Shown here one piece after another: positions 3,114 to 28,667 of a stretch of DNA of 49,708 nucleotides. The translations under genes and the position numbers were made by a program. The stretch is from contig CAMDGQ010000028.1 in assembly GCA_945897955.1 (NCBI GenBank), positions 1 through 49,708 on the forward strand. The letters are read 5' to 3'. Under the pieces are notes generated by a model. That model ran no database searches. It worked only from the letters and a program-made list of their open reading frames with translations, and had not been told where the DNA came from. Within the stretch, counting starts at the first letter, position 1. Each line of letters begins with the position of its first letter. Source of the stretch: Tepidiphilus sp. J10 (GTDB lineage Bacteria; Pseudomonadota; Gammaproteobacteria; Burkholderiales; Thiobacillaceae).

Positions 3114-3128
3114 TAATCATAATGATTA
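3114..3128. promoter_or_regulatory. Palindromic operator of the Phd/ParE pair
   Basis: TAATCAT-A-ATGATTA is a perfect 15-base palindrome (7-base arms, one central base) lying 38 bases upstream of the antitoxin start. Antitoxins of the Phd/YefM class repress their own operon by binding such palindromes. The site contains an in-frame ATG at 3122, which argues that this ATG is not the start codon. Confidence 0.6.
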
Positions 3129-3166
3129 CAATGAACACATCAGCCATCAACTATCAGGATATATCC

Positions 3167-3481: not shown

Positions 3482-3491
3482 CGCAGTCCCT

Positions 3492-3788
3492 ATGTTCAAA
3501 ATCAACTGGACGGAAGAGGCCGAGCAAGACCTCGAAAACATTCTGTTGTATTACCTCGAAGAGGCAGGCCTGCGCGTCGCGGAAGCGGTTTACAACCGGA
3601 TCAGGGAGCAAGTTGGTCAGCTCGACACGTTTCCGGAAAGTACCCGGGTCGGACGTGTACCTGGCACGCGCGAATGCGTGATAAGCCGTTTGCCTTATAT
3701 CGCGGTCATCGATGTCGGCCACGACACGGTTACGGTGCTGAGCGTGGTGCATACCGCACGCAAATACCCGTCGGAAGATAACGGGTAG
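3492..3788 (+). CDS. RelE/ParE-type toxin
   Basis: A 98-residue protein beginning MFKINWTEEAEQDLENILLYY, the opening strand and helices of the RelE/ParE superfamily, with a late RVPGTRECVISRLPYIAVIDV and VLSVVHTARKYP. The conserved R-x-P/Y and V-L-x-V-x-H-x-x-R elements are those of ParE-like toxins, which poison gyrase, or RelE-like ones, which cut mRNA on the ribosome; sequence alone does not decide which. It follows the antitoxin by 10 bases in the usual antitoxin-first order. Confidence 0.87.
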   Translation: MFKINWTEEAEQDLENILLYYLEEAGLRVAEAVYNRIREQVGQLDTFPESTRVGRVPGTRECVISRLPYIAVIDVGHDTVTVLSVVHTARKYPSEDNG

Positions 3789-5513: not shown

Positions 5514-6464
<951 letters not shown>

Positions 6465-6471
6465 AGACTGC

Positions 6472-6537
6472 CCCGGATTACGCCTTCGGCTGCATCCGGG
6501 CTACATGTAGCCTGGGTGCAGCGCAGCGAAATCCGGG
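6472..6537. repeat. REP-like inverted pair between nifH and nifD
   Basis: Two arms of about 31-33 bases, each built as CCCGGATT...CAGC...CCCGGGCTAC-like, face one another around CTACATGTAG. This is the widespread proteobacterial extragenic palindrome that carries a CCGGAT...ATCCGG stem. It begins eight bases after the nifH stop. I infer a role in mRNA 3'-end protection or partial termination, which would fit the excess of NifH over NifDK known in diazotrophs. Confidence 0.75.
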
Positions 6538-6600
6538 AATCGTACCAATCAACCTCAGCATGCCTTCCACAGATTGGTGGCGGCGTGAAAGGAGAATGAA

Positions 6601-8088: not shown

Positions 8089-8094
8089 GGTTGC

Positions 8095-8151
8095 AGGTGC
8101 GAATTTATTCGCACGACCCCAGCGGAAAACAGTGCGAATGAATTCGCACCT
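8095..8151. repeat. Double hairpin repeat between nifD and nifK
   Basis: Two copies of an 18-base palindrome, GTGCGAAT-NN-ATTCGCAC, at 8097-8114 and 8132-8149, lie in inverted relation (outer AGGTGCGAAT...ATTCGCACCT). Each can fold alone or with the other. This repeat differs in sequence from the one after nifH and begins seven bases after the nifD stop. Confidence 0.8.
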
Positions 8152-8234
8152 ACGCCGCCCCGCGAGGGGGGCGTAGAACCCAGATCAACCTATGCCCGTG
8201 TCCGCAGATTGGCGGCTCGGGCCAGGAGATGAAC

Positions 8235-9803
8235 ATGCAAGTCGTTGAAGACATCAAGCCGTCCTACCCGCTGTTCCGCGATGACTATTACAAGGACATG
8301 CTGCACAACAAGCAGCAGTTGTTCGAAGAGCGCATCGACGAAACCAAACTGGCGGAAACCTTCCAGTGGACCACCACGGTGGAATACCAGGAACTCAACT
8401 TCAAGCGCGAAGCGCTGACCATCAACCCGGCCAAGGCCTGCCAACCCCTCGGCGCCGTGCTGTGCGCGCTGGGCTTTGAAAAGACCCTGCCCTATGTGCA
8501 TGGTTCGCAAGGTTGCGTCGCCTACTTCCGCACCTACTTCAATCGCCACTTCAAGGAGCCGATCGCCTGCGTGTCCGACTCGATGACCGAAGACGCAGCG
8601 GTGTTCGGCGGCCAGAAGAACATGTTCGACGGCCTTGAAAATGCGCTGGCGCTGTACAAGCCGGAAATGATCGCGGTGTCCACCACCTGCATGGCGGAAG
8701 TCATCGGTGACGACCTCAACGCCTTCATCAACAACACCAAGCACGCCGGCCACATCGCGCAGGATTACCCGGTGCCCTACGCCCACACGCCGTCGTTCGT
8801 CGGCAGCCATGTCACCGGCTGGGACAACATGTTCGAAGGCATCGCCCGCTACTTCACGCTCAACTACATGGCGGACAAGAAAGTCGGCAGCAACGGCAAG
8901 ATCAACCTGGTGCCCGGCTTCGAAACCTACCTGGGCAACTTCCGCGTCATTCACCGCATGCTGGACGAAATGGGTGTCGAACATAACCTGCTGTCCGACC
9001 CGACCGAAGTGCTCGACACCCCGGCCGATGGCGAATTCCGCATGTATGCCGGCGGCACCAGCCAGGCCGAAATGAAGGATGCGCCGAACGCCATCACCAC
9101 CTTCCTGCTGCAGCCGATGCAACTGGAAAAGACCAAGAAACTGGTCGAAACCACCTGGACCCACGAAGTGCCCAAGCTGAACATTCCGATGGGCCTGGAG
9201 TGGACCGACGAGTGGCTGATGAAGGTGTCCGAAGTGACCGGCAAGCCGATTCCCGCCAGCCTGGCGAAAGAACGCGGCCGCCTGGTGGACATGATGACCG
9301 ACAGCCACACCTGGCTGCACGGCAAGAAGTTTGCGCTGTATGGCGATCCGGACTTCGTCATGGGCATGAGCAAGTTCCTGCTGGAACTGGGCGCCGAGCC
9401 GATCCATGTGCTGTGCAACAACGGCAGCAAGAAGTGGAACAAGGCGATGCAGAAGGTGCTGGCCGAGTCGCCCTACGGCGTCAACTGCAAGACCTACGCC
9501 GGCGCCGACCTGTGGCACATGCGCAGCCTGTGCTTCACCGAGAAGCCCGACTTCCTGATCGGCAACAGTTACGGCAAGTTCATCCAGCGCGACACCCTGC
9601 ACCTGGGCAAGGCGTTTGAAGTGCCGCTGATCCGCCTCGGCTTCCCGATCTTCGACCGTCACCACCTGCATCGCATGACCACCCTGGGTTACGAGGGCGC
9701 CATGTACATCCTCACCACCCTGGTGAACTCGGTTCTGGAGCGTCTGGACGAAGAGACCCGAGGCATGGGGACGACGGACTACAACTACGACCTGGTCCGC
9801 TGA
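8235..9803 (+). CDS. nifK: Nitrogenase molybdenum-iron protein beta chain NifK
   Basis: This is the beta subunit of the MoFe protein, pairing with NifD to hold the P cluster. Counting from the ATG at 8235, the P-cluster cysteines are about C69 (KACQPLGA), C94 (GSQGCVAYF) and C152 (STTCMAEV), and the serine ligand is in HTPSFVGSH. The N-terminal block SYPLFRDDYYKDML and FQWTTTVEYQELNF is characteristic. An in-frame ATG at 8229 touches the AGGAG at 8224-8228 with no spacer, so the ATG at 8235 (six-base spacer, 522 residues, close to the usual 523) is chosen. Confidence 0.99.
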   Translation: MQVVEDIKPSYPLFRDDYYKDMLHNKQQLFEERIDETKLAETFQWTTTVEYQELNFKREALTINPAKACQPLGAVLCALGFEKTLPYVHGSQGCVAYFRTYFNRHFKEPIACVSDSMTEDAAVFGGQKNMFDGLENALALYKPEMIAVSTTCMAEVIGDDLNAFINNTKHAGHIAQDYPVPYAHTPSFVGSHVTGWDNMFEGIARYFTLNYMADKKVGSNGKINLVPGFETYLGNFRVIHRMLDEMGVEHNLLSDPTEVLDTPADGEFRMYAGGTSQAEMKDAPNAITTFLLQPMQLEKTKKLVETTWTHEVPKLNIPMGLEWTDEWLMKVSEVTGKPIPASLAKERGRLVDMMTDSHTWLHGKKFALYGDPDFVMGMSKFLLELGAEPIHVLCNNGSKKWNKAMQKVLAESPYGVNCKTYAGADLWHMRSLCFTEKPDFLIGNSYGKFIQRDTLHLGKAFEVPLIRLGFPIFDRHHLHRMTTLGYEGAMYILTTLVNSVLERLDEETRGMGTTDYNYDLVR

Positions 9804-9811
9804 CGCGGACA

Positions 9812-9869
9812 GGGGCAAGGTTCAAGGAACAAGGCTCAAGCGCATCCCTTGCACCTTGCTCCTTGTCCC
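9812..9869. repeat. CAAGG-heptad inverted repeat between nifK and nifT
   Basis: The left arm 9812-9834 carries CAAGG three times at seven-base steps; the right arm 9847-9869 carries CCTTG three times in the same spacing. The 23-base arms differ at five positions and can form a long hairpin with a 12-base loop. It belongs to neither of the repeat types in the two preceding gaps. Confidence 0.72.
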
Positions 9870-9889
9870 TTGCACCTGGAGAAATAAAC

Positions 9890-10114
9890 ATGGCCAACAT
9901 CATGATTCGGCGCAGCGACAAGGGTGACTACGTGTTCTACCTGCCCAAGCGCGACCTCGAAGACACCATCGTTTCGATGGAGTTCGACACCCCGGAAAAG
10001 TGGGGCGGCGAGATCAAGCTGAACAACGGCGGCGCGTATTTCATCGAGCCCCAGACTGCCCCGGAACGTCTGCCTTATTCGGTGCGCGCCAAGCGCCTGG
10101 ATGCAGCGGAATAG
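9890..10114 (+). CDS. nifT: NifT/FixU family protein
   Basis: A 74-residue protein beginning MANIMIRRSDKGDYVFYLPK and containing WGGEIKLNNGGAYFIEP, the NifT/FixU signature. The family occurs almost only in nif operons after nifK. Its biochemical role is unknown; deletions in other species are nearly silent. The ATG at 9890 has GGAG eight bases upstream; a TTG further up in the same frame (9863) falls inside the hairpin repeat and is not used. It sits 86 bases after nifK. Confidence 0.93.
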   Translation: MANIMIRRSDKGDYVFYLPKRDLEDTIVSMEFDTPEKWGGEIKLNNGGAYFIEPQTAPERLPYSVRAKRLDAAE

Positions 10115-10154
10115 TTACTAGAAACCGACGGAACCACGCGAAAGGAAAACCATC

Positions 10155-10355
10155 ATGGCACTGCAAATCGTTGCTGACCTGTGCACCGCCTGCGCGGATT
10201 GCGAAGAAGACTGCCCGACCGCCTCCATCCGGAGAAAGAAAGGCGTCTACATCATCAACCCGGACACCTGTACCGAATGCGAGGGCGATTACGACAAGCC
10301 CAAGTGCATTCAACTGTGTCCGATCGACAACTGCATCATCCCGCTGGCGGCGTAA
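10155..10355 (+). CDS. 2[4Fe-4S] ferredoxin, nif-associated (FdxN/Alvin type)
   Basis: A 66-residue ferredoxin. The first motif is C10-x2-C13-x2-C16-x3-C20-P. The second is C39-x2-C42-x8-C51-x3-C55-P, with the eight-residue loop (EGDYDKPK) between the second and third cysteines that marks Chromatium-type and many nif-linked ferredoxins. A ninth cysteine, C60, is near the end. It probably passes low-potential electrons to NifH or serves cluster or cofactor assembly. The AAGGAAA site precedes the ATG. It lies 40 bases after nifT in the nif operon. Confidence 0.93.
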   Translation: MALQIVADLCTACADCEEDCPTASIRRKKGVYIINPDTCTECEGDYDKPKCIQLCPIDNCIIPLAA

Positions 10356-10376
10356 CCCTTAAACAACCCTGGCTAT

Positions 10377-10432
10377 GTAGGGTGCGCCATGCGCACCGAT
10401 GAACGTGAAACGGTGCGTATGACGCACCCTAC
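10377..10432. repeat. GTAGGGTGCG palindromic repeat between ferredoxin and nafY
   Basis: The arms GTAGGGTGCG (10377-10386) and CGCACCCTAC (10423-10432) are perfect inverted copies. Inside the left half is a small palindrome, GTGCGC-CAT-GCGCAC (10382-10396). A close relative of the whole element is at 43582-43634, so this is a dispersed genomic repeat and the fourth distinct type in the nif gaps. Confidence 0.8.
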
Positions 10433-10449
10433 TGATCGAGAGGCCCACC

Positions 10450-11163
10450 ATGACCACCATCACCAAAGCCGCCGCGTTTCGCATCACCCTCGCCGCCAAG
10501 GCGCTGGCCGAGGTGAATCTGTCGGCATTCACGATCAAGCTCGCGGAAAAGCTCGGGCTGCCGCTGACCGAGGAAAAGCTCGCTACCATCACAGTCGCCG
10601 ATCTCAAGCTGATTCTGGGCGGTGAAGAAACGGTCGAGCCCGATGTCGATACCGCCAGCATCAAACTCGCCGTGCGCTTCCTCTGGGGCGAGAACGGGGA
10701 AGCCGACGACAGCGTGCCGAAGCCGGAAACCTACGTCGACGGCGAAATGCCCGGCAGTCTGCGTGTCGCGGTCGCCTCCAACTCCGCCGACAACCTCGAC
10801 GGCCATTTCGGTTCCGCACCGCGCTTCCTGATCTATCAGGTCGGCAAGGACGCCATCAAATTGATCGACGTGCGCCCGACACTGCTCACCGACGATGCAG
10901 AGGACAAGAACGTCGCCCGTTCCGAACTGATCAACGACTGCCAGATCGTCTATGTGCAATCCATCGGCGGCCCTGCTGCGGCCAAGGTAGTGCGCGCCAA
11001 CGTACATCCAATCAAGTTCCCGCAACCCTTGCCCGCGCGCGAAGCGCTCGCACGTCTGCAAGGCACGCTGGAGTCGCCGCCGCCCTGGCTGGCCCGGATC
11101 ATGGGCGTGAAAGCCAAGTCGCTGGCGCAGTTTGAATACGACGAAGAAGCGGAAGAGGCCTGA
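10450..11163 (+). CDS. nafY: NafY-like FeMo-cofactor carrier (NifX/NifY/NafY family)
   Basis: A 237-residue two-domain protein. Residues 1-95 form a helical domain (TKAAAFRITLAAKALAEVNL, then LTEEKLATITVADLKLIL) as in the N-terminal domain of Azotobacter NafY, which binds apo-NifDK. Residues 103-235 are the NifX/NifB-like cofactor-binding core, with RVAVASNSADNLDGHFGSAP; H119 corresponds to the histidine known to bind FeMo-co in NafY. It would hold FeMo-co or stabilise apodinitrogenase before cofactor insertion. The length (NafY is about 232) favours NafY over the shorter, single-domain NifX. It is separated from the next gene by only five bases. Confidence 0.88.
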   Translation: MTTITKAAAFRITLAAKALAEVNLSAFTIKLAEKLGLPLTEEKLATITVADLKLILGGEETVEPDVDTASIKLAVRFLWGENGEADDSVPKPETYVDGEMPGSLRVAVASNSADNLDGHFGSAPRFLIYQVGKDAIKLIDVRPTLLTDDAEDKNVARSELINDCQIVYVQSIGGPAAAKVVRANVHPIKFPQPLPAREALARLQGTLESPPPWLARIMGVKAKSLAQFEYDEEAEEA

Positions 11164-11168
11164 ACACC

Positions 11169-11450
11169 ATGAGCGTTGTTGCCATCGATGCCGACACCCT
11201 CGCCGCAGTCGCCGCTCGCGCCGCCGAACTGGAACTCAGTGAAGCCAGCATCAGCCATCTGCGGCGGGAATGGCCCGGCGTCCACTTCACCTTCTGCGGC
11301 GAGGATGACGTCCCCGCCCGGCTCACCCCGTTTCTGGCGGGAGATGGATTCAACATTTACCTGGTCAACAACGCCGACCACTGCGTCGCCTTCACCAGCC
11401 AGATCGAAGCCGCAACGGGCATCGTACTGGCGACGGTTTCCGAAGACTGA
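11169..11450 (+). CDS. Small nif-operon protein, DUF6129-like
   Basis: A 93-residue protein beginning MSVVAIDADTLAAVAARAAELELSEA, followed by HLRREWPGVHFTFCGEDDVPARLTPF and GFNIYLVNNADHCVAFTSQIEAATGIVLATV. I recognise it as a small family found directly after nafY or nifX in nif operons (DUF6129, recalled rather than searched). Two cysteines (in FTFCGED and ADHCVAF) are present, with no signal or membrane segment. No function is known. It is the last gene before the modE operator and closes the nif operon. Confidence 0.75.
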   Translation: MSVVAIDADTLAAVAARAAELELSEASISHLRREWPGVHFTFCGEDDVPARLTPFLAGDGFNIYLVNNADHCVAFTSQIEAATGIVLATVSED

Positions 11451-11515: not shown

Positions 11516-11543
11516 CGGCATCGTGCAACCACAGGAACTGAGC

Positions 11544-13128
<1,585 letters not shown>

Positions 13129-13192
13129 TGTCTAATGACGAGAAAAGCAGGCAGACTGCCTCGCGCTTCGATTTGTGGAAAAGGAAAACCCC

Positions 13193-13399
13193 ATGAGCAC
13201 CGCTGAAATCATTGAACAGGCGCTGCATTTGAAAGCGTCTGAGCGCTATGTCCTGCTTGAGCTTTTGCATCAAAGCCTGGATAAACCCGACCCTGAAATC
13301 GACCGAGTTTGGCAGGAGGAGGCATTACGCCGATTGCAGGCTTATGACGAAGGTCGATTGGAGTGTGTTTCGATGCAGGAGGCGTTCCGGGATTTGTAA
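13193..13399 (+). CDS. Addiction-module antitoxin (RelB/StbD-like) inside mod operon
   Basis: A 68-residue protein, MSTAEIIEQALHLKASERYVLLELLHQSLD..., which matches the short 'addiction module protein' family (pattern of xLxxxER/LxxxLxxSL followed by W-x-x-E). It is encoded 64 bases after modA. The ATG at 13193 has AAAAGGAAA upstream; an earlier in-frame ATG at 13175 lacks one. Its TAA stop at 13397-13399 overlaps the A of the toxin ATG, so toxin translation is coupled to it. Likely function is binding and silencing the ParE-like toxin. Confidence 0.83.
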   Translation: MSTAEIIEQALHLKASERYVLLELLHQSLDKPDPEIDRVWQEEALRRLQAYDEGRLECVSMQEAFRDL

Positions 13400-13692
13400 T
13401 GGAACTGATCCTTGCCAAGCTTGCTCAAGCCGAAATGCTGGAAGCAAAACATTATTACGAGCGACAGCAACGCGGCCTTGGCTTGCAGTTTCTGAATGAG
13501 GCGAAGCGATCCGCCATACGAATTCTTGAGCAACCGCTCGCATGGCAGATCGAGATTGAACCGGTCAGACGATTCATCTTCAACCGATTCCCATACAAAA
13601 TGCTCTATGTCATTCGAGCCGAACGCATCGTTGTCTTGGCAGTAGCCCATCAACATCGCGATCCGGATTACTGGGTTGAACGTCTCGACTGA
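13399..13692 (+). CDS. RelE/ParE-type toxin inside mod operon
   Basis: A 97-residue protein, [20 protein letters not shown]..., ending [34 protein letters not shown]. The [16 protein letters not shown] core and [12 protein letters not shown] end are typical of ParE-like toxins that pair with the addiction-module antitoxin family. The start overlaps the antitoxin stop by one base (TAATG). The stop is only two bases before the modB ATG, and modB shows no clear ribosome site of its own, so modB translation may depend on ribosomes leaving this toxin gene. Confidence 0.86.
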
Positions 13693-13694
13693 CC

Positions 13695-14366
13695 ATGAAC
13701 CCCGCTGACCTCGCCGCCATCTGGCTGACGCTGAAACTGGCCGGTGTCACCACGGCATTGTTGCTGCTTATCGGCACACCCATCGCCTGGTGGCTGGCGC
13801 GCACACGTTCCTGGTGGAAAGGGCCGATTGGCGCGGTGGTGGCATTGCCGCTGGTGCTGCCGCCGACGGTGATCGGATTCTATCTGCTGGTGACGATGGG
13901 ACCGAACGGGCCGGTCGGACAGTTCACCCAGTCACTCGGGCTCGGTGTGTTGCCGTTCACTTTCGCCGGCCTGGTGGTTGCCTCGGTGTTTTACTCGATG
14001 CCCTTCGTCGTGCAGCCATTGCAGAACGCCTTCGAGGCGATCGGCGAGCGGCCGCTGGAAGCCGCCGCCACCTTGCGCGCTTCGCCGCTGGATACCTTCT
14101 TCTCAGTCGTGCTGCCGCTGGCGCGGCCGGGCTATCTGACCGCCAGCGTGCTCGGTTTCGCGCATACGGTCGGCGAGTTCGGCGTAGTGCTGATGATCGG
14201 CGGCAATATTGAAGGCGAAACACGGGTGATCTCGGTGCAGATCTACGACCACGTCGAGGCGATGGAATATGCCCAGGCACACTGGCTGGCCGCCGGCATG
14301 CTGGTGTTTGCGTTCATCGTGTTGCTGGCGCTGTACACGTTGAACCCAAGCGGGCGGCGCAAATGA
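13695..14366 (+). CDS. modB: Molybdate ABC transporter permease ModB
   Basis: A 223-residue inner-membrane permease with five or six membrane segments. The ABC coupling loop [32 protein letters not shown] (the EAA motif) is at about residues 115-146. [16 protein letters not shown] and [19 protein letters not shown] are highly conserved in ModB. It forms the membrane channel that receives molybdate from ModA. The start follows the ParE-like stop by two bases, and the stop overlaps the modC start by four (ATGA). Confidence 0.96.
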
Positions 14367-15457
14367 ACACCCCGATTTCACTGCTCCTCGCCCGCTTCAA
14401 ACTTGATCGCCCCGGCTTTTCACTCGATGTCGATCTTGACCTGCCGGCGCGCGGCGTCACCGCCCTGTTCGGCCATTCCGGCTCCGGCAAGACCACACTG
14501 CTGCGCTGTATCGCCGGGCTGGAACGCGCACCCGGCGGACGGCTCAGCCTGGACAGCGAGGTCTGGCAGGATGCGAACACCTTTCTGCCGACGCATCTCC
14601 GCCCCATCGGCTATGTCTTCCAGGAAGCCAGCCTGTTTCCGCACCTGAGCGCGCGCGGCAACCTGGAGTACGGCATGAAACGCAGCGCCAAAGCGCTGGA
14701 TCGCTCTGCGCTGGATCACATCGTCGATCTGCTCGGCATCGGCGCGTTGCTCGATCGACGTCCGGAGGCGCTTTCCGGCGGCGAACGGCAGCGCGTCGCC
14801 ATTGCCCGCGCGCTGGCGGTCAAGCCCAAGCTGCTGCTGATGGACGAGCCGCTGGCCGCGCTTGATCTGGCGCGCAAGCAGGAAATCCTGCCGTATCTGG
14901 AACGCCTGCATGAGGAACTGGAAATTCCCGTGCTTTACGTCAGCCACGCCCCCGACGAAGTCGCCCGACTGGCCGATTACATCGTGGTCATGCGGGAAGG
15001 CCGCGCCGTCGCCGCCGGGCCGCTGACCGAAACGCTGGCGCGGCTCGATCTGCCGATTCACCTCGGCGAGGATGCCGGTGTAGTACTCGATGCGATGGTC
15101 AGCGAACGCGATGCGCAATGGCATCTGGCGCGCGCCACGTTTGCCGACAACCCGGATGCCGGCGTCTGGGTACGCGATGGCGGTCACGCCCTTGGTCATC
15201 ATGTCCGTGTGCGCATCCTGGCGCGCGACGTCAGCCTGGCAGTCACCCGCCACACCGGCACCAGCATCCAGAACATCCTGCCCGGCGTGGTCGCCGAACT
15301 GGCCAACGACACCCATCCGGCGCTGGCGCTCGTGCGGGTTAATGTCGGCGGCGCATCGCTGGTCGCAAGACTGACCTGGCGCTCGGCGCACGATCTAGGC
15401 CTCACCCCCGGCCAGATCGTCTATGCCCAGATCAAGGCGGTGGCGCTGATCGGCTAG
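14363..15457 (+). CDS. modC: Molybdate ABC transporter ATPase ModC
   Basis: A 364-residue ATPase. Walker A is GHSGSGKTT (residues 37-45), the ABC signature [15 protein letters not shown], Walker [14 protein letters not shown], and the switch histidine is in [13 protein letters not shown]. The last 65 residues form a Mop/TOBE domain ([20 protein letters not shown]) that binds molybdate and can give feedback inhibition. It overlaps modB by four bases. The transcript probably ends soon after, since the next genes are on the other strand with the stops one base apart. Confidence 0.96.
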
Positions 15458-16231: not shown

Positions 16232-17323
16232 TCAAGCGGTCAGTTCACGCGAGGTGAGCTGGTACTTGAATCTGGCTGCGTCGAGGCTGTTCAGGCGCTT
16301 GCCGGCAACCTCGGCCTGCGGATACATCAGAAACGGCACCTCCGGCCCGCTCGCCGAAGGCAGCACCAGATCGTGCGCGAAGTTGTAGGCCAGCCAGTTC
16401 ATTTCCCAGGCCCCGAACAACAGCTTGCGGGCCTTGCTGACCGGCTCGTCGGCCAGACTCAGGTTGCCTGGCGGCTCCTCCAGCGCAACCTTGCGCACGT
16501 CGGCCGGGTCCACCGGCACCCAGCCGAATTCGTTCAGGAACACCTCGGCGCGGCAGTGCTGGCCCTTCGAGATGTCACCGCTCTTGCCGAGCGACTTGAA
16601 GCCGAGGCGCGATTCGGTCACGCGCACGCCGTAAACATCGCGCGCCGGCAGGCCGGCGGCGCGCGCGAGGCCGACGTAAAGCGCGTTGAGGTCGGCGCAT
16701 TTGCCGCTCAGGTCGCCGGTTTCCAGCATGAACTTGATATCGCCCAGGCCGCAGCCCTGCGTTTTTGGGTTGCGGAAGGTGTTTTCCACCACCCATTCAT
16801 AGATTGCCAGAGCCTTTTCCTGATCGCCGCGCGCAGAGCGGGTGATTTTCAGCGCAGTGTCCAGAACGATGCCATCGGTGGGCAGCAGTCTGGTGGGCTG
16901 GGTGTAAAGCTGGAGCGAGGCGGTATCCAGCGACGCGGCCTTGCCGGGCCGGCTCAGGTCGATGTTGCGGTCGCGCGCGGCGAAGCGGCTGACCACTTCC
17001 AGCGCGGCGGGCGACTTGCTGTCGGCGCCCCATTCCGCGAACAGCATTTCGGCGCCGTACTTGCCGTCTCGCATGACATGCATATCGGCGGCGTTGCCCT
17101 GCCAGAGATTGCCCATCGGCACGATCCAGTCGGTTTCCCGCACCGCCGGCAATGGCACCCAGGCGCGGGCGACGCCGTCGGCCGGTAGATCGACCTTGGT
17201 GGTGACTTCGAAAATGCGCCAGCCCTGCTCGCGCAGCGATGCCGCCTTCGAAGTCTGTGAATAGGGAATCAGCGCGGCGCCGAGCAACGCGCCACCGGCC
17301 TTCAGAAAATCTCGTCTTTGCAT
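16232..17323 (-). CDS. Tat-exported transglutaminase-like protein
   Basis: A 363-residue protein with a twin-arginine signal, MQRRDFLKAGGALLGAALIPYSQTSKA, then a transglutaminase-like core. The catalytic triad is visible as cysteine in SGKCADLNALYVGLARAAGLPARDVYGV, histidine in KGQHCRAEVFLNEFGWVPVD and aspartate in VPVDPADV. The family hydrolyses or cross-links peptides or amides in the periplasm; the substrate is unknown. An ATG four codons earlier (17335) contains the GGAGG that serves the ATG at 17323, so the latter is preferred. It is a lone minus-strand gene divergent from the NifA-controlled LRV operon. Confidence 0.85.
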   Translation of the reverse strand: MQRRDFLKAGGALLGAALIPYSQTSKAASLREQGWRIFEVTTKVDLPADGVARAWVPLPAVRETDWIVPMGNLWQGNAADMHVMRDGKYGAEMLFAEWGADSKSPAALEVVSRFAARDRNIDLSRPGKAASLDTASLQLYTQPTRLLPTDGIVLDTALKITRSARGDQEKALAIYEWVVENTFRNPKTQGCGLGDIKFMLETGDLSGKCADLNALYVGLARAAGLPARDVYGVRVTESRLGFKSLGKSGDISKGQHCRAEVFLNEFGWVPVDPADVRKVALEEPPGNLSLADEPVSKARKLLFGAWEMNWLAYNFAHDLVLPSASGPEVPFLMYPQAEVAGKRLNSLDAARFKYQLTSRELTA

Positions 17324-17507
17324 GGTTGCCTCCATCGTGAATAGGATTATTGAACGAACACATTCGTTTGCAGCTTGTACACCGCATTGTGGCGAGCTGG
17401 GCGACGAACCCGGCTTCGTAATCGGCCGGACGCGCGGTCAGAGCATAGCTTTCGCGACAGTCCACCGGCAAGGAGCCGCGCCGCTTGCCAGCCTGCATTC
17501 AGACCAA

Positions 17508-17549
17508 TCGGCTTGTGTCTGTCGGCTTGTGTCTGTCGGCTTGTGTCTG
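17508..17549. repeat. Three tandem 14-base repeats
   Basis: TCGGCTTGTGTCTG is present three times in exact tandem (17508-17521, 17522-17535, 17536-17549), ending 24 bases before the NifA site of the LRV operon. Each unit has TGTG/TGTC elements but no matching ACA at ten bases, so they are not themselves NifA sites. Possibly a binding array or simple slippage. Confidence 0.85.
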
Positions 17550-17573
17550 CCGGATCGTGCGCGGCACGAAAAT

Positions 17574-17589
17574 TGTCGCGTTCCCGACA
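17574..17589 (+). promoter_or_regulatory. NifA upstream activator site of the LRV operon
   Basis: TGTCGCGTTCCCGACA is a TGT-N10-ACA match that differs little from the first nifH site at 5381-5396 (TGTCGCCACCCCGACA). It is 71 bases before the -24 element, the normal enhancer distance. It lies in the 441-base gene-free stretch 17324-17764, which otherwise holds the tandem repeat and the sigma-54 promoter. Confidence 0.72.
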
Positions 17590-17660
17590 ATATCCGCCAG
17601 GCGCTTGTAGGACTCGTCGCGGCGTTCTCGGCAACACATGCCGGATCAAGGACTTAACGC

Positions 17661-17677
17661 TGGCATGGCGATTGCAA
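17661..17677 (+). promoter_or_regulatory. Sigma-54 promoter of the LRV operon
   Basis: TGGCAT-GGCGA-TTGCAA has the invariant GG and GC ten bases apart and matches the consensus at all but one position. Just before it, ATCAAGGACTTAAC (17645-17658) repeats 13 of 14 bases of the nifH promoter segment at 5465-5478, which covers the IHF site. The LRV start is 87 bases downstream. Confidence 0.8.
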
Positions 17678-17764
17678 AGCCTTGACTGGATCGCGCCGGG
17701 CGTGCAACTCGGCCGCACGGAACTGGAGCCATGCAAACCGTCACCCTCAAACCCGACAGCAACC

Positions 17765-18547
17765 ATGTCTGAGCAGAGCCGTCGCCCCGGCCTGCATCTG
17801 GTTGCCGCTGAAATCGCGCCTCCCGATTGCGGCCGCTGCCCGCACCGGGAAACCGTGCTGGAGGCGGGACGCTGTCAACCAGGCGACAGTTGCCTGATTG
17901 CGCACAGCGGACGCCAGATCGACCGATTTCTCAGCCGCAACCCGGAGTATGCCGAAGCCTGCCTGAATGACCTGTTCTGGGAACGCCGCGCCATTGCTGT
18001 GCGCTATGTAGCCCGGGAACGCGTTGCCGAGTTGGTGCATGACCCTGATGAAGTGGTACGGCGCGCAGTGGCCATTCGCTTGCCGATTGAAGAACTCGGC
18101 GCGCTTCGCCAGGACCCGGATCGCGAGGTGCGCATCACCGTCGCCGCGCGACTGCCGGTGGACCAACTCGAACGCATGATCGACGACACCGATTACCTTG
18201 TTCGCCAGCACGTCGCCGAACGTCTGCCGCATGGCCGCCTGCCGCGCATGGCCGATGACTCTGACCGCGAAGTGCGCAAGGCGGTCGCGCGCCGGCTACC
18301 GGCCTTCGCGCTGAAACGCATGGCGGGCGACCCGGAAGCCGAGGTGCGCCGAATCGTCGCTGCACGCCTGCTGCCCGAGGATGCCGCCGGCCTGCTGACC
18401 GATCCGGACTGGCTGGTGCGTCTGGAAGCCGTCCGCCATGCGCCGATGCAGGCCATCGCCGAACTGATCGACGATCCCGAACCGGATGTGCGCACGCTGG
18501 TGTACGCCCGCCTGGAAGAATTTCTGAAACAGGATGAATCCACATGA
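17765..18547 (+). CDS. 4Fe-4S cluster leucine-rich-repeat-variant (LRV) protein
   Basis: A 260-residue protein. Residues 22-43 hold C22-x2-C25-x11-C37-x5-C43, the N-terminal 4Fe-4S site known from the Azotobacter LRV protein, whose structure has a cluster domain joined to a right-handed superhelix. Residues 65-255 are about eight 24-residue repeats of the type DPDREVRITVAARLP, each with a conserved V-R and A-x-R-L. The Azotobacter homologue also sits in a nif region; its function is unknown. Here a NifA/sigma-54 promoter precedes it, so expression should follow nitrogen fixation. No strong ribosome site is seen before the ATG; a 13-codon frame from 17731 ends over it and may couple translation. 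Confidence 0.88.
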   Translation: MSEQSRRPGLHLVAAEIAPPDCGRCPHRETVLEAGRCQPGDSCLIAHSGRQIDRFLSRNPEYAEACLNDLFWERRAIAVRYVARERVAELVHDPDEVVRRAVAIRLPIEELGALRQDPDREVRITVAARLPVDQLERMIDDTDYLVRQHVAERLPHGRLPRMADDSDREVRKAVARRLPAFALKRMAGDPEAEVRRIVAARLLPEDAAGLLTDPDWLVRLEAVRHAPMQAIAELIDDPEPDVRTLVYARLEEFLKQDEST

Positions 18548-19509
18548 ACTGTTGCGTTCCCGACCCAGCCACCCTGCAAAGCCTGATCACCGAAATCGAG
18601 GCCTGCGCGCCACGCCCGCACCAGACCGGGCTGCTCGCGGCGGTGGAGCGTCTGCTGCCGGATTGCGCCTTTCGCTTCGCGCTGACGCGCGGTGGCTGGT
18701 ATCGGGCCGGCGGCCTGATCCGGGCCGATGGCGAGCGTATGGCCGTGACGCTGGCAGACTGGCTGGAACCGGAACTCGATGCTTGTGGCGGTGACCTTGG
18801 CGAGTTTCTCGACCGCCATGCCGACGAAGCGCTATTGGTTACCCGCCATACCGGGCGTACGCACTATCTGGTCGCACCCTATGGCCCGGACCCGGCGGAA
18901 TTTCTGCAACTGGAAGTCGAAGAATTGCAGGAAGTAGTCGACCGCAAGTTGTGGGATGCCGCCGCGCCGCCGAGCGACACCGAGGAATTGAGCGATCCGA
19001 TCAACCCGGCGCCGGCCTCGCCGCAGGTGGTGGGCGCGCCGTATTACCGTTTCCGGCGACTGACCGATATCAGACAGGTCATTGCGAGGCTGCAAGCGCC
19101 GATCGGCGGCATGCACCCGATGCTCCGCTTCATGCGCGAATGGCGCGCCAGCCGCGCCGACAGCGGCAATCATTTCAGCGATCACTGGATCGTTGCGCTG
19201 CGCGAACATCACGATCAGTACAACAACATCGTGCTCAGCGCCACGCCGGTATCCCGCCATGCCCGCCAACTCAAGACTTTTCAATGGAACGACACACTGA
19301 GTGGTCTTGAAGCGGGCCGCCAGTTGCAAGCCTTCGACCGCGCCGCCGGCTACAGCAGCGCCTGGTATTTCCATTTGGTCAGCGGCGGCCTGACCCCGCG
19401 CAACATCGCCTTCACCGCGTTGCACGATATCGAATCCGGTTTTGGCTACCTGGGCGATCTCGACACCGCGCTGCTGTATGGCTGGCTGCGCGAGCCGTAT
19501 TCAATCTGA
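18544..19509 (+). CDS. Unrecognised protein cotranscribed with the LRV gene
   Basis: A 321-residue soluble protein that I do not recognise. It starts four bases inside the LRV stop (ATGA), so it is translationally coupled to it and shares the NifA/sigma-54 promoter. Visible features are an N-terminal C3-C4 pair, an acidic middle (LQLEVEELQEVVDRKLWD), a proline/alanine linker at about 155-163, and a C-terminal half with HFSDHWIVALREHHDQYNNIVLSAT and a run of aromatic residues (SSAWYFHLVSGGLTPRN). Histidines in the HFSDHW...REHHDQY region could bind metal. No signal peptide or membrane segment. Context suggests a role in nitrogenase function together with the Fe-S LRV protein. Confidence 0.85.
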   Translation: MNCCVPDPATLQSLITEIEACAPRPHQTGLLAAVERLLPDCAFRFALTRGGWYRAGGLIRADGERMAVTLADWLEPELDACGGDLGEFLDRHADEALLVTRHTGRTHYLVAPYGPDPAEFLQLEVEELQEVVDRKLWDAAAPPSDTEELSDPINPAPASPQVVGAPYYRFRRLTDIRQVIARLQAPIGGMHPMLRFMREWRASRADSGNHFSDHWIVALREHHDQYNNIVLSATPVSRHARQLKTFQWNDTLSGLEAGRQLQAFDRAAGYSSAWYFHLVSGGLTPRNIAFTALHDIESGFGYLGDLDTALLYGWLREPYSI

Positions 19510-19523
19510 TTTGCCGACGCGGG

Positions 19524-20057
19524 TCAGAACAGAAGGAACTTGAAACCCATCAGGATCAACACGGTTCCGCCGAATATTTCCGCTTTGCTTTCCAGCCAGG
19601 TTCCGCTTTTTCTGCCGACATGGACGCCGGCCATGCTGAAAACGCAGGTAATGACACCGATGACCAGACAGGCGAGGTAGGGATTTGCATCGAGCAAAGT
19701 CAGACTGAACCCGGCGGCCATGGCATCAATGCTGGTGGCGATGGCCAGGATCAACATCACCTTGTTGGTAATGGTCTCGATGTCCTCTTCGATGCCTTCC
19801 TGTACGCCTTCATAAATCATCTTTGCACCAATCAGAACCAGCAAACCGAAAGCGATCCAGTGCGTATAGCTTTCGATCCAGCCCAGAGCGCCCTTGCCTC
19901 CCAGATAACCAATCAACGGCATCAAGGCCTGAAACACGCCGAAGAAGAGCCCCGCTTTCAATGCCAGGCCGGGCACATTCTTCTTCGCGCCCAGGCCGAT
20001 GGATACCGCAAACGCATCCATGCTGAGCGCGATGGCGAGGATGATCACTTCAATCAT
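19524..20057 (-). CDS. mntP: Manganese efflux pump MntP
   Basis: A 177-residue six-helix membrane protein. [26 protein letters not shown] and [21 protein letters not shown] are the two inverted repeat signatures with the conserved S-x-D-A-x-A aspartates (D14 and the later TSIDAMA) that define MntP (DUF204). It exports Mn2+ from the cytoplasm. No room exists for the yybP-ykoY riboswitch, which often controls mntP, since the upstream gene ends 18 bases before the start. It may be read through from the SSB-tailed gene. Confidence 0.93.
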
Positions 20058-21972: not shown

Positions 21973-22722
21973 ATGTTCGCCAGATTGCGGGAAGACATCC
22001 GCGTTGTGTTCGACCGGGATCCGGCGGCGCGCACCTTTTTCGAGGTGCTGACCACCTATCCGGGCCTGCATGCAATCATCTGGCATCGGGTTTCGCATGA
22101 GTTATGGCGTGCAGGATTCAAATGGCTGGCGCGATTGTCCAGCCACCTGGCACGCTGGTTCACCGGCATCGAGATTCATCCGGGTGCAACCATCGGCCGG
22201 CGCGTATTCATAGATCATGGCATGGGCGTAGTCATCGGCGAGACCGCCGAGATCGGGGACGACTGCACCCTTTATCACGGCGTCACGCTGGGCGGCACTT
22301 CCTGGAACAAGGGCAAGCGGCATCCGACCCTGATGCCGGGCGTGATTGTCGGCGCCGGAGCAAAGATTCTCGGGCCGATCACGTTGGGCGCGGGCGCGAA
22401 GGTCGGCTCCAACGCCGTGGTGGTCAAAGATGTGCCGGAAGGCGCGACGGCAATCGGCATTCCAGCGCGCATTCTTGATGCGGAAGTGGACAAGGCGCGC
22501 GAGGCCGTGGCGAAAAAGCTGGGCTTTTCCGCCTACGCGGTGTCGAGCGACATGAACGATCCGATGGTCAAGGCGATTCACGGTCTGATCGACCATTCCG
22601 CCCATACCGATCAGCGCCTGGCCTGGGTCATGGCCGAACTGGAGCGGCTTGGCGGCGGCCAGGAAGTAGACAGGACGAGGGACAATTTCGACCCCGCCTC
22701 GTTGAACAAGATGGTTGATTGA
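21973..22722 (+). CDS. cysE: Serine O-acetyltransferase CysE
   Basis: A 249-residue enzyme that makes O-acetylserine from serine and acetyl-CoA, the first step of cysteine synthesis. The N-terminal helices ([37 protein letters not shown]) and the left-handed beta-helix ([44 protein letters not shown]) are complete. The catalytic histidines are in FIDHGMG and LYHGVTLGG. Placed just ahead of iscR-iscSUA, it can supply the cysteine that IscS uses as sulfur source. In some diazotrophs such a paralogue is called NifP. Confidence 0.95.
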
Positions 22723-22738
22723 CAATCTATCGAATTGA

Positions 22739-22763
22739 ATAGTTGACCAATTTAATCGGGATT
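22739..22763. promoter_or_regulatory. IscR type-1 binding site
   Basis: The 25 bases read ATAGTTGACC-AATTT-AATCGGGATT, matching the E. coli type-1 consensus (ATASYYGACT-RWWW-YAGTCRRSTAT) at most positions. It covers the -35 of the predicted isc promoter, so cluster-loaded IscR would repress its own operon. Confidence 0.7.
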
Positions 22764-22771
22764 AGTAGAGT
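22743..22771 (+). promoter_or_regulatory. isc operon promoter
   Basis: TTGACC (22743-22748), a 17-base spacer and TAGAGT (22766-22771) form a sigma-70 promoter 33 bases upstream of iscR, inside and next to the IscR box. Confidence 0.55.
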
Positions 22772-22804
22772 GTCGCCATCCATCCATCAACAACGAGGCA
22801 CATC

Positions 22805-23332
22805 ATGCGGCTGACCACCAAAGGACGTTTTGCGGTAACGGCAATGATCGATTTGGGCATGCGCCATCAACGCGGACCGGTCACGCTGGCCGGAATCAGC
22901 GAGCGGCAGCGGATTTCCCTGTCCTACCTGGAGCAGTTGTTCGGCCGTCTGCGCCGACAGGGTATTGTCGACAGCGTGCGCGGCCCCGGCGGCGGCTACA
23001 CCCTGGCGCAAAGCATGGTGGACATTTCCGTGGCCGACATCATTCGCGCCGTCGATGAGCCGATCGACGCGACGCAATGCGGCGGTCTGGGCAACTGCCA
23101 TGACGACCGCGAATGCATGACGCACGATCTGTGGATGAGCCTGAATTCGCGCATCTACGACTATCTGGATTCGGTAAGCCTGGACGAACTGGTCCGGCAG
23201 CAACTTGAAAAGCAGGCCGAAGGCGCCGTTTCCGGACATAGCCATGCCGGCCACAGAAATGAAACCCGACGCGTGGTCGGTTCAGCCGAACTGAAAATCG
23301 GCATGGCGCACAAAGCCGCCGCCACCAGTTGA
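22805..23332 (+). CDS. iscR: Fe-S cluster assembly regulator IscR
   Basis: A 175-residue Rrf2-family repressor. The winged helix starts [20 protein letters not shown] and includes [29 protein letters not shown]. The 2Fe-2S ligands C92, C98, C104 and H107 ([17 protein letters not shown]) are exactly as in E. coli. With a cluster it represses isc through type-1 sites; without, it acts on type-2 sites. The C-terminal tail is histidine-rich ([10 protein letters not shown]). It is the first gene of the isc operon, and its TGA overlaps a possible early iscS start. Confidence 0.97.
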
Positions 23333-23346
23333 TGGAGCAAACAAAG

Positions 23347-24558
23347 ATGGTCAAGACCCCCATTTATCTCGATTACTCCGCGACCACGCCGGTTGATCCG
23401 CGCGTTGCCGCGAAGATGATTCCGTACCTGACCGAGATGTTCGGCAATCCGGCTTCGCGCTCGCACGTTTTTGGCTGGGATGCCGACAAGGCGGTCGAAG
23501 AAGCGCGCGGCCATGTCGCGGCGCTGGTCAATGCCGATCCGAAGGAAATCGTCTGGACCTCGGGCGCGACCGAATCCAACAATCTCGCCATCAAGGGTGC
23601 GGCGCACTTCTACCACGGCAAGGGCAAGCACCTGATCACCGTGAAAACCGAGCACAAGGCTGTGCTGGATACCTGTCGCGAGCTGGAACGCGAAGGTTAT
23701 GAGGTGACCTACCTGGGCGTGCAGGCCGATGGCCTGATCGACATGGAAGAGCTCAAGGCAGCGATCCGCCCGGACACCATCCTGGTTTCAGTGATGTATG
23801 TGAACAACGAAATCGGCGTCATCCAGGACATCCCCGCCATCGGTGAACTGTGCCGCTCGAAAGGCATCCTGTTTCACGTCGACGCAGCGCAGGCCACCGG
23901 CAAGGTTGAAATCGACCTGAGCAAGCTGAAGGTCGATCTGATGTCGTTCTCGGCCCACAAGACCTATGGCCCGAAAGGCATCGGCGCGCTGTATGTGCGG
24001 CGCAAGCCGCGTGTGCGACTGGAAGCTCAGATGCACGGCGGCGGCCACGAGCGCGGCATGCGTTCCGGCACGCTGGCGACGCATCAGATCGTCGGCATGG
24101 GTGAAGCCTTCCGCATCGCCAGACTCGAAATGGGCGCCGAGACAGAACGCATCCGCGCCCTGCGCGACAAGCTCTATCGCGGCTTCCAGGACATGGAAGA
24201 AGTGCATCTGAACGGCGACTTCGAGCGCCGCATCGCCGGCAACCTCAACGTCAGTTTCAATTTCGTCGAGGGCGAGAGTCTGATCATGGCGATCAAGGAT
24301 CTAGCAGTTTCGAGCGGTTCGGCCTGCACCTCGGCCAGTCTGGAACCGTCCTATGTACTGAAGGCGCTGGGCCGCAACGACGAACTGGCGCACAGCTCGA
24401 TCCGCTTCACCATCGGCCGCTTCACCACCGAGGAAGAGATCGACTACACCATCAAGTTGCTGCACGAAAAGATCGGCAAGCTGCGCGAAATGTCGCCGCT
24501 CTGGGAAATGTACAAAGACGGAATCGACTTGAACACAGTGCAATGGGCTGCACACTAA
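23347..24558 (+). CDS. iscS: Cysteine desulfurase IscS
   Basis: A 403-residue PLP enzyme that takes sulfur from cysteine for Fe-S clusters and other sulfur compounds. H103 stacks on PLP (KTEHKAVLD), K205 binds it ([12 protein letters not shown]), and the persulfide cysteine is C327 in [13 protein letters not shown]. Length and motifs are those of IscS rather than NifS. An ATG at 23332 is also in frame and overlaps the iscR stop; the start at 23347 gives [20 protein letters not shown], aligned with E. coli IscS, and is preferred. Confidence 0.97.
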
Positions 24559-24568
24559 GGAGTTAGAA

Positions 24569-25000
24569 ATGGCATACAGCGAACAGGTTCTGGATCACTA
24601 CGAAAATCCGCGCAACGTCGGCGCCTTCGGCAAGGACGATATCGGCGTCGGCACCGGCATGGTCGGCGCTCCGGCTTGTGGCGACGTGATGAAGCTGCAA
24701 ATCCGGGTCAACGATCAGGGCATCATCGAGGATGCCAAATTCAAGACCTACGGCTGCGGCTCCGCAATCGCCTCATCCTCATTGGTCACCGAATGGGTCA
24801 AGGGCAAGACGCTGGACGAGGCGATGAACCTGAAGAACACCCAGATCGCCGAGGAACTGGCGCTGCCGCCGGTGAAGATTCACTGTTCAATCCTGGCCGA
24901 GGATGCGATCAAGGCGGCGGTGGCCGACTACAAGCAGAAGCACGGCAACAGCGCCGGCAGCTCGGAGTACACCGCCTGCAACCCGCCGGTCACGGCCTGA
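24569..25000 (+). CDS. iscU: Fe-S cluster scaffold IscU
   Basis: A 143-residue scaffold on which 2Fe-2S clusters form. Cluster ligands C37 (GAPACGDVM), C63 ([10 protein letters not shown]) and C106 ([11 protein letters not shown]) with D39 are all present. The LPPVK motif at 99-103 is the binding site for HscA. The protein is about 15 residues longer than E. coli IscU, with a C-terminal tail that has an extra cysteine ([13 protein letters not shown]). GGAGTTAGAA precedes the ATG; it is 10 bases after iscS. Confidence 0.97.
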
Positions 25001-25017
25001 ACTGCAAGGAGATCATC

Positions 25018-25353
25018 ATGACCGTAACGACTGGCGTCACCCTGTCCGAGCGCGCCGCCACGCACATCAAGAATTTTCTCGCCAAGCGCGGCAGCGGCGT
25101 CGGCCTCAAGTTGGGGGTGCGCACTTCCGGCTGCTCCGGCATGGCCTACAAGCTGGAATTCGCCGATGCCGCCGACCCGGAAGACATCCAGTTCGAATCG
25201 CACGGTGTCACCGTGTTCATCGACCCGAAAAGCCTGAGCTATCTCGAAGGCACCGAGCTTGATTTCGTCCGTGAAGGCTTGAACGAAGGTTTCAAGTTCA
25301 ACAACCCGAACGTGAAATCCGAGTGCGGCTGCGGCGAGTCGTTTAACGTCTGA
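25018..25353 (+). CDS. iscA: A-type Fe-S carrier IscA
   Basis: A 111-residue A-type carrier that takes clusters from IscU to target proteins. The three ligand cysteines are C39 ([14 protein letters not shown]) and C103/C105 ([11 protein letters not shown]). The frame is open far upstream, but that part overlaps iscU; the ATG at 25018 with AAGGAG upstream is clearly the start. It is 17 bases after iscU. Confidence 0.96.
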
Positions 25354-25400
25354 GTGCAGCGGACGGCGGCTTGCGCCCCGCCACTCGCGACCAGCCAGCC

Positions 25401-25928
25401 ATGCTCGACTTCTCCCGTAACCACTTCGAACTGTTCGCGTTGCCGATGCTGTTCGGCATAGATGCCGAGCAGCTCGATCAGGCCTATCGCAACATCCAAA
25501 CCGAGATTCATCCAGACAAATTTGCACATGCGGGCGAAGCCGAACAACGGCTTTCGATGCAGTGGAGCACGCGCGTCAACGAGGCCTATCAGACCCTGCG
25601 CAAACCGTTCGAGCGCGCCCGTTATCTGCTGCAACTGCATGGCATCGACGCAATGGATGCGAAGAACACGGTGATGCCGGCGGATTTCCTGATGCGGCAG
25701 ATGGAATGGCGCGAAGCCTTGCTGGAAGCGCGCGAAGGGCGCGACATCAAGGCTCTGCAAGGACTGGAAAAGGATCTGCAAGCGCATGCCCGCCAGTTGC
25801 AGGACCAACTCGCCAGCCTGCTTGATGCGCAACGCGATTACATCGAAGCCGGCAACGTACTGCGCAAGGTTCGTTTCATGGACAAGCTGCTCGACGAAAT
25901 CGACGCGACCTATGAGGCCATCGAGTAA
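25401..25928 (+). CDS. hscB: J-domain co-chaperone HscB
   Basis: A 175-residue J-protein. The HPD motif that stimulates HscA ATPase is at residues 37-39 ([15 protein letters not shown]), followed by a C-terminal three-helix domain ([19 protein letters not shown]) that holds IscU. The ATG at 25401 yields the usual length; a codon at 25371 would add ten unusual residues. It is 47 bases after iscA. Confidence 0.95.
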
Positions 25929-25990
25929 GTCCTGATACAGCATTACCCGTCGGTTTCATTTTCGTATTCAACTCGTTCACCGCTCACGCA

Positions 25991-27859
<1,869 letters not shown>

Positions 27860-27860
27860 C

Positions 27861-28667
27861 ATGAGCTTGTTCGAACCCGAATTCATCGCCTCCCTGCAGG
27901 CGCGGCTGGATTCGCACCCGATCTATGCAGCGGTGGAAAGTGTGGATGACCTGCGCGTATTCATGCAGCACCACGTTCATTCGGTTTGGGATTTCATGTC
28001 CCTGATCAAGTACCTGCAACACACCGTCGCGCCGGCCCGCTGGCCATGGACGCCGGGCGCCGACGCCACTGTGCAGCGGTTCATCAACGAACTGGTGCTG
28101 GAAGAAGAAACCGACGAAGCCGGCCCCGGCGCAGCGGGGGAATTCTCCAGCCACTTCGCGCTGTATCTCGGCGCCATGCGCGAAATCGGCGCCAACGCCG
28201 ACCGCCCTGCCCGCTTCGTCGAGATAGCCGGCCGCGAAGGCATCGCTGCCGCGCTGGCCAGCGGTCTCGCCCCGACGCCATCCGCCGACTTCAACCGCAC
28301 CACCTTCGCCTTTATCGACGCCGCCAAGCCGCATAACGTCGCTGCTGCGCTGGCGCTGGGACGCGAGCACATCATTCCGGCCATGTTCCGCGCCTTCCTC
28401 GACCGCATGGCGGTCACCGAAGCGCAGGCGCCGGTGTTTCACTACTACCTGAAGCGCCACATTCACCTGGATGAAGACTTTCATGCACCGCTGTCCTTGC
28501 GACTGCTGGACGGTCTGTGCGACGGCGATCCGGTGAAGGTTGCCGAAGCGCGTGCCGCCGCGATCCAAGCCGTCGAGGCACGCGTCGAATTCTGGGATGG
28601 CGTGCTTGCCGCGCTGCCCAGCCAGATCAACAAATCCATCCGACAGGAAACCCCATGCCTCAATTGA
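27861..28667 (+). CDS. DUF3050 heme-oxygenase-like protein inside isc operon
   Basis: A 268-residue alpha-helical protein of the DUF3050 family. It has FMQHHVHSVWDFMSLIKYLQ (residues 34-53), NELVLEEETDE (76-86), GEFSSHFALYLGAM (93-106) and HYYLKRHIHLDEDFHAP (194-210). Histidines and acids at helix-facing positions, including D204-x3-H208, look like the metal site of heme-oxygenase-like diiron proteins; I infer a metal-dependent oxidase or oxygenase. It starts one base after the hscA stop and its 3' end overlaps the fdx start by 13 bases, so it is a full member of the isc operon here. That position, between hscA and fdx, is not part of the standard operon. Confidence 0.8.
   Translation: MSLFEPEFIASLQARLDSHPIYAAVESVDDLRVFMQHHVHSVWDFMSLIKYLQHTVAPARWPWTPGADATVQRFINELVLEEETDEAGPGAAGEFSSHFALYLGAMREIGANADRPARFVEIAGREGIAAALASGLAPTPSADFNRTTFAFIDAAKPHNVAAALALGREHIIPAMFRAFLDRMAVTEAQAPVFHYYLKRHIHLDEDFHAPLSLRLLDGLCDGDPVKVAEARAAAIQAVEARVEFWDGVLAALPSQINKSIRQETPCLN

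Follow-up and report, generated by a model that had tools for sequence, protein, structure and literature searches.

What does a protein of no recognised family do when its gene sits behind a putative nitrogen-fixation promoter, its start overlapping the end of the gene for an iron–sulphur protein? The question is raised by a contig from Tepidiphilus sp. J10 (Burkholderiales; Thiobacillaceae), CAMDGQ010000028.1 of assembly GCA_945897955.1, whose 49,708 nucleotides we call the window. Between positions 17574, where an activator site begins, and 19509, where the second stop codon ends, lie two genes: one for a 4Fe-4S leucine-rich repeat variant (LRV) protein, and one, orf321, for the protein in question. 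The two are shown here to form, as judged from their arrangement, a bicistron behind a predicted NifA/sigma-54 promoter, in a genome that also has nifHDK, NifA and RpoN. Our preferred reading is that orf321 encodes a facultative nitrogenase accessory factor, active in maturation and with LRV as an optional partner. We give this a probability of about 0.5; the mechanism proposed for it is the part that we infer. The features of the unit are as follows.

17574-17589, + strand: NifA upstream activator site (UAS), TGT-N10-ACA, TGTCGCGTTCCCGACA, found by pattern scan and sharing 13 of its 16 bases with the first nifH UAS
17661-17676, + strand: sigma-54 -24/-12 promoter TGGCATGGCGATTGCA, with one mismatch, paired with the UAS and kept in relatives
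17731-17772, + strand: leader open reading frame (ORF) of 13 codons, its TGA overlapping the LRV start codon; also in the five nearest relatives
17765-18547 (ATG to stop), + strand: LRV gene, 260 residues, 4Fe-4S leucine-rich repeat variant protein (PF01816, PF05484, 1lrv_A)
17828-17893, + strand: codons for the four invariant cluster cysteines, Cys22, Cys25, Cys37 and Cys43
18544-19509, + strand: orf321, 321-residue protein of a nif-linked family (no Pfam or NCBIfam family, 70 relatives, purifying selection, AlphaFold model)
18913-18936, + strand: codons for the signature EVEELQEV, residues 124-131 of orf321, the core of a nif-specific conserved patch

The original prediction, made from the letters of the window, had placed a UAS and a near-perfect -24/-12 element ahead of the LRV gene and had likened the UAS to the first nifH site. 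Both observations hold. TGTCGCGTTCCCGACA matches the first nifH UAS (at 5381) as listed above, and the second (at 5415) at 9 of 16 bases; TGGCATGGCGATTGCA deviates from TGGCACG-N4-TTGCW at one of the 12 specified bases; and the two elements are 71 bp apart. The nifH promoter of the same window is alike in the order and spacing of its elements, and differs in having two UAS instead of one. Taken by itself, TGT-N10-ACA is not significant in the window (4 found, 5.3 expected), and neither is the -24/-12 pattern when as many as two mismatches are allowed (10 found, 13.0 expected). For the correctly ordered pair of elements, simulating the window 300 times with a first-order Markov model gives a chance expectation of 0.01 per window at one mismatch and 0.107 at two or fewer; two are observed, at nifH and at LRV, and these are the only ones. 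With three mismatches allowed, the ordered pair is no longer unusual (0.71 expected per window). NifA and RpoN are both encoded in the genome, with TIGR01817 and TIGR02395 above cut-off and RpoN in one copy. A sigma-70 scan of 17300-19700 found no promoter, and terminator-like matches in the same interval are at chance level. Directly upstream of the UAS, at 17505-17550, there are about three repeats of a GGCTTGTGTCTGTC-like unit.

Control of the pair by NifA and sigma-54, which had been predicted from this one locus, is supported by conservation of the promoter in relatives. Our survey covered 81 loci: 57 with a usable LRV start, 5 with an unclear one, and 19 with no LRV gene upstream of orf321. 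A -24/-12 element (two mismatches or fewer, within 400 bp) lies ahead of LRV at 43 of the 57; a UAS accompanies it at 42, with a spacing of 71–76 bp in 32 of these. Seventeen of the 19 loci without LRV offered a usable orf321 start, and at four of them (L029, L042, L056 and L057) a complete promoter stands immediately 5' of orf321 itself. At another locus, L023, some 145 kb separate the pair from the closest nifE-like gene and some 450 kb from nifD, all on one contig, and the pair retains a -24/-12 element free of mismatches, preceded at 63 bp by a UAS. Since a full promoter can precede orf321 alone, and is retained at L023, nif control would seem to be tied to orf321 and not to LRV only.

Is orf321, then, confined to nitrogen fixers? 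In a sample of 369 genomes of the class, nifD scores above cut-off in 31; one genome in which nifD is split over two contig ends (G240) was added by hand, making 32. Clear copies of orf321 occur in 12 of the 369, every one of them in this set of 32; the 337 genomes without nifD have none (Fisher p 2e-14, relatedness ignored). A thirteenth match, in G107, is a weak and distant plasmid homologue and was excluded from the count. When 398 genomes of the phylum were searched with a profile, only the window, G713 (which has nifD) and distant forms in G107 and G446 were found. Among 70 orf321 loci, 54 carry nif-type genes in the surrounding stretch examined; for the other 16, nifD is above cut-off in the genome in 11 and nifH in one (L025). 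The carriers include members of the Gallionellaceae, the Thiobacillaceae—many are Gallionellaceae and relatives of Thiobacillus—and the Chromatiaceae, as well as a methanotroph; among cultured diazotrophs, Pseudothauera lacus has both LRV and orf321. In the samples searched, the close family appears almost only in diazotrophs, a few incomplete assemblies aside, which is the restriction expected at the outset. Homologues common in non-diazotrophs, which would have spoken against that expectation, are absent for the close family, but they do exist as a distant plasmid branch.

The first gene of the pair is what it was taken to be. Its product is a clear member of the LRV 4Fe-4S proteins: seven stretches match the repeats of PF01816 (E 7.7e-31, 104.8 bits, cut-off 21.6), the N-terminal Fe-S domain matches PF05484 (E 1.1e-10, 41.7 bits, cut-off 27), and the structural-database match is 1lrv_A (E 1.2e-74), which we take to be the LRV protein of Azotobacter vinelandii. 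With that protein, and with PF01816/PF05484 proteins in general, it has repeats, Fe-S domain and four cysteines in common. Cys22, Cys25, Cys37 and Cys43 are present in all 56 rows compared (55 relatives whose match is long enough, plus the window), and a bound 4Fe-4S cluster is predicted. To our knowledge the function of LRV proteins is still open, despite the long-existing crystal structure 1lrv. PF05484 is above cut-off in 23 of the 369 genomes, 22 of which are among the 32 with nifD.

By eye, the window and the five relatives closest to it (L015, L016, L017, L055 and L058) share a leader ORF of 13–19 codons that follows a GGAG- or GGAT-like sequence and whose TGA overlaps the LRV start (ATGNNTGA). 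A stop codon occurs at this overlap position in 9 of 58 loci, and the ribosome-site rule accepts four of the nine. Translational coupling of the leader to LRV is possible.

The window's order of LRV then orf321 is not universal. In Pseudomonas stutzeri A1501 the row is nifY, PST1331, PST1332 (a leucine-rich repeat gene) and nifE, according to the excerpt of PMC2820453; PST1332 is directly followed by nifE, and LRV therefore occurs there without an adjoining orf321. The same excerpt gives PST1332 as 3.27-fold up under nitrogen fixation, and lists for it an RpoN site and no NifA site.

The second gene, as predicted, encodes 321 residues and overlaps LRV by four bases, ATGA. Its product, which the original prediction could not place, matches no family in Pfam or NCBIfam; the AlphaFold model has a predicted local distance difference test (pLDDT) score of 93.9, and comparison with PDB structures gave no clear match. 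Hydropathy gives no transmembrane-like stretch and points to a soluble protein, and family-library scans found no DNA-binding, receiver or enzyme domain. Across 79 rows no cysteine is common to more than 63%. Selection on the gene is purifying, with a nonsynonymous divergence (dN) of 0.13 and a synonymous divergence (dS) of 0.78 against L015, and dN/dS about 0.05–0.17. One family was considered and rejected: VMAP-M0 (PF19916), of MoxR-vWA systems, is weakly matched by 3 of 62 members, all related Zoogloeaceae (best E 0.0011). The best score, 19.9 bits, lies below the curated cut-off of 25.9, as do all the others, and the remaining 59 members are unmatched at E 0.1. A search of the open-licence literature brought up no recognised description of orf321, which is weak evidence.

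Relatives of orf321 do exist elsewhere. A tblastn search with orf321 brings up 45 plasmid records with homologues, among them that of the Methylococcus sp. EFPC2 nif plasmid, which carries nifHDK, nifENX, nifB, nifA, nifL and rnf genes. With a Burkholderia member as query, 160 of 72,556 plasmid records contain a homologue, and 100 of the 160 are typed as conjugative. The hosts include Burkholderia, Bradyrhizobium, Cupriavidus, Rhodanobacter and Geobacter, and the proteins are homologous to orf321 over nearly the whole length; in eight regions of this other branch they are annotated as hypothetical, are 334–376 residues long and have no recurring neighbour that we could see. In a tree these eight plasmid rows group together and split from the nif rows with 100/99 support, and the ninth plasmid row, from Methylococcus sp. 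EFPC2, places in the nif branch. We take the nif branch to be a lineage of its own within a wider family, the rest of which sits on plasmids.

Conserved residues can be sorted in the same way. Those common to both branches—W73, Q122, E130, W200, W215, W274, W314 and Y319—look structural. Those conserved in the nif branch only include R54, G56, G57, R101, T106, H107, E126, E127, L128, Q129, R171 and R172, and most nif-specific residues are not shared by the plasmid proteins. They fall largely on strands 44-59, 98-112, 120-135 and 167-175 of the model, and may together make one surface.

What that surface might be for is suggested by the company the gene keeps. The genes upstream in the window are these.

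5574-9803, + strand: nifH, nifD and nifK (TIGR01287, TIGR01282 and TIGR01286 above cut-off)
9863-11450, + strand: nifT, a 66-residue 4Fe-4S ferredoxin-like protein, a nifX/nifY-like gene (scoring slightly below the nifX cut-off) and DUF6129
11523-15457, + strand: modE, modA, modB and modC, between the nifHDK block and LRV

The order typical of relatives is nifHDK-nifT-nifY-DUF6129-(modEABC)-LRV-orf321-nifE-nifN-nifX. Among the 64 loci with enough sequence, a nifE-like gene starts within 600 bp downstream of orf321 at 21; in the window genome itself nifE is a partial gene on another contig. Maturation is the role we prefer because orf321 adjoins nifE or nifY in many clusters. The orf321 protein would be a cytosolic accessory factor acting at the maturation stage of nitrogenase. 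Its binding partner might be NifEN, apo-MoFe protein or else a carrier of the cofactor, in a manner comparable to NafY/NifY-type factors, and it would bind by way of the nif-specific patch: R54, R101, H107, E126-E127 and R171-R172, which lie on neighbouring strands. The Fe-S solenoid of LRV would often assist in this maturation step without being essential to it. More tentatively—and here we would sooner be doubted than believed—orf321 may found an undescribed accessory family with a fold unseen in the PDB, a lineage specialised for nif within the wider, otherwise plasmid-borne family, that acts with or without LRV in nitrogenase assembly.

Several observations weigh against a role in maturation with LRV as partner. 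Twenty of the 32 nifD genomes are without orf321. Four loci, all in metagenome-assembled genomes (MAGs), come with neither nifD nor a demonstrated nifH above cut-off: L050 and L067 have a nifE-like match only, L075 has neither nifD nor nifH, and L048, searched for nifD, has no match to it. The -24/-12 element was not found ahead of LRV at 14 of the 57 loci. Twelve of these 14 have nifY- or DUF6129-type genes upstream (L021 and L066 are the exceptions), so that LRV and orf321 may be read from nifH there. Nor was a full promoter found ahead of orf321 at 13 of the 17 loci without LRV. Distant homologues, with about 21–29% identity to orf321, sit on plasmids outside nif contexts. As for LRV, in 15 genomes no LRV gene adjoins orf321, and 14 of these lack an LRV_FeS gene altogether; several of them are MAGs, in which an absence may simply reflect a gap in the assembly. 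The 32 nifD genomes divide into 10 with both genes, 2 with orf321 alone, 12 with LRV alone and 8 without either, and within this set the association of orf321 with any LRV is not significant (p 0.25).

If not maturation, what? The main rival, since orf321 is so patchy, is protection: orf321 would shield nitrogenase from oxygen, redox or metal stress, with LRV as the redox-sensing Fe-S part. We regard this as possible but unlikely. A distribution of 12 in 32 nifD genomes would suit it, as would the invariance of the four cluster cysteines, and many of the carriers, Gallionellaceae and relatives of Thiobacillus, are micro-oxic organisms. Protection fits less well with orf321 itself, which matches no redox- or oxygen-binding family and has no well conserved cysteine, and with the presence of orf321, there without LRV, in Marichromatium gracile, an anaerobic phototroph.

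Might the two proteins instead be an obligate complex, functional only together? The ATGA overlap recurs at 35 of the 62 loci with an LRV match, LRV ends within 400 bp upstream of orf321 at 49 of the 64 loci with enough sequence, and at L023 pair and promoter have stayed together far from nifD and nifE. A short type of LRV, moreover, goes with orf321 (10 of 12 against 5 of 20, p 0.003), in a short/long split made post hoc. Against this stand the near-complete lack of LRV_FeS in genomes where orf321 has no LRV beside it, the 12 nifD genomes with LRV and no orf321, and the four LRV-less loci at which the promoter directly precedes orf321; we consider an obligate complex improbable. In the Methylococcus nif plasmid, too, the LRV gene lies beside nifZ and near nifB, away from orf321. 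We read the partnership, as far as gene arrangement can tell, as frequent but dispensable. The prediction that orf321 works with LRV stands as regards their overlap, their proximity and their joint survival at L023; the genomes that lack LRV_FeS speak against a general dependence of one on the other, and the p of 0.25 lends it no support.

Regulation of nif expression or nitrogenase activity (switch-off, for example), as opposed to building or shielding the enzyme, is a long shot: the pair has a NifA promoter of its own, is occasionally distant from nifD and nifE (L023), and at L060 orf321 lies, by eye, beside PII-like and rnf-like genes, but the DNA-binding, receiver or enzyme domain that might go with such a role was not found. 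Least probable of all, and hardly credible to us, is that orf321 came from plasmids as a mobile passenger, was trapped in nif clusters and contributes nothing to nitrogen fixation; the homologues on 160 plasmid records, and the eight regions whose (incomplete) gene tables show no nif gene, would be in keeping with this, but the well-supported split between nif and plasmid branches, the low dN/dS, the retention of the nif promoter across long divergence and the 337 nifD-less genomes without a clear copy all argue otherwise.

The orf321 family lies outside Pfam and NCBIfam; LRV proteins and NifA-regulated nif accessory operons are already known. A likeness that we can offer is pnfA of P. stutzeri A1501, which, in the excerpt of PMC2820453, has NifA/sigma-54-type control and a reported restriction to diazotrophs, as orf321 appears to have; pnfA is divergent from nifH and has a UspA-like segment, and it is likened to orf321 by description, not by sequence. 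A nif-regulated neighbour so tightly coupled to LRV, and free of it in some lineages, gives a handle on both proteins. If orf321 does have a part in assembling or protecting nitrogenase, engineered nitrogen fixation would gain a new candidate component, and the occurrence of the gene could help to explain how nitrogenase keeps working in the Gallionellaceae, Thiobacillaceae, Chromatiaceae and methanotroph that carry it.

Some details of the neighbourhood deserve mention. Distance from nifD varies: in G136, orf321 is about 565 kb away from it. Three further loci, none with a nif-type gene in its 8-kb flanks, were entertained as pairs far outside nif regions and rejected, since nifD or nifE-like genes are on the same contigs: at L039 a nifE-like gene is 8 kb and nifD 20 kb away; at L043 a nifE-like gene is 24 kb and nifD 17 kb away; and at L059 a nifE-like gene is 13 kb away. 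In seven loci (L004, L006, L008, L012, L068, L080 and L081) a gene of about 331 codons lies between LRV and orf321; by eye it is anthranilate phosphoribosyltransferase/YbiB-like, and in L080 it is fragmented. Of 85 sequences searched, comprising 84 loci and the window, 27 (L023:6611-7075, for one) hold an acetyltransferase-like gene (GNAT, by eye), in most cases ahead of the pair; the window has a transglutaminase gene upstream of LRV instead. The stretch L060:2378-10742 has ATP-grasp-like and alpha-E-like genes (by eye) beside orf321, as well as the PII- and rnf-like ones.

Elsewhere in the window, the 66-residue 4Fe-4S ferredoxin-like gene occupies 10155-10355, between nifT and the nifX/nifY-like gene. 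In Azoarcus BH72 a ferredoxin gene cotranscribed with nifHDK has been tied to nitrogenase switch-off, going by the title of a reference in PMC3916325. The DUF6129 protein (11169-11450) follows the nifX/nifY-like gene, and occurs in the nif clusters of many relatives. Slightly upstream of the nif block, at 3122-3788, there is a Phd-like antitoxin and ParE-like toxin pair. An isc-like locus at 21973-28667 consists of hexapeptide-transferase, Rrf2, class-V aminotransferase, NifU_N and HSP70 genes, and is followed, within the same interval, by a gene for a DUF3050 protein with weak haem-oxygenase-like similarity.

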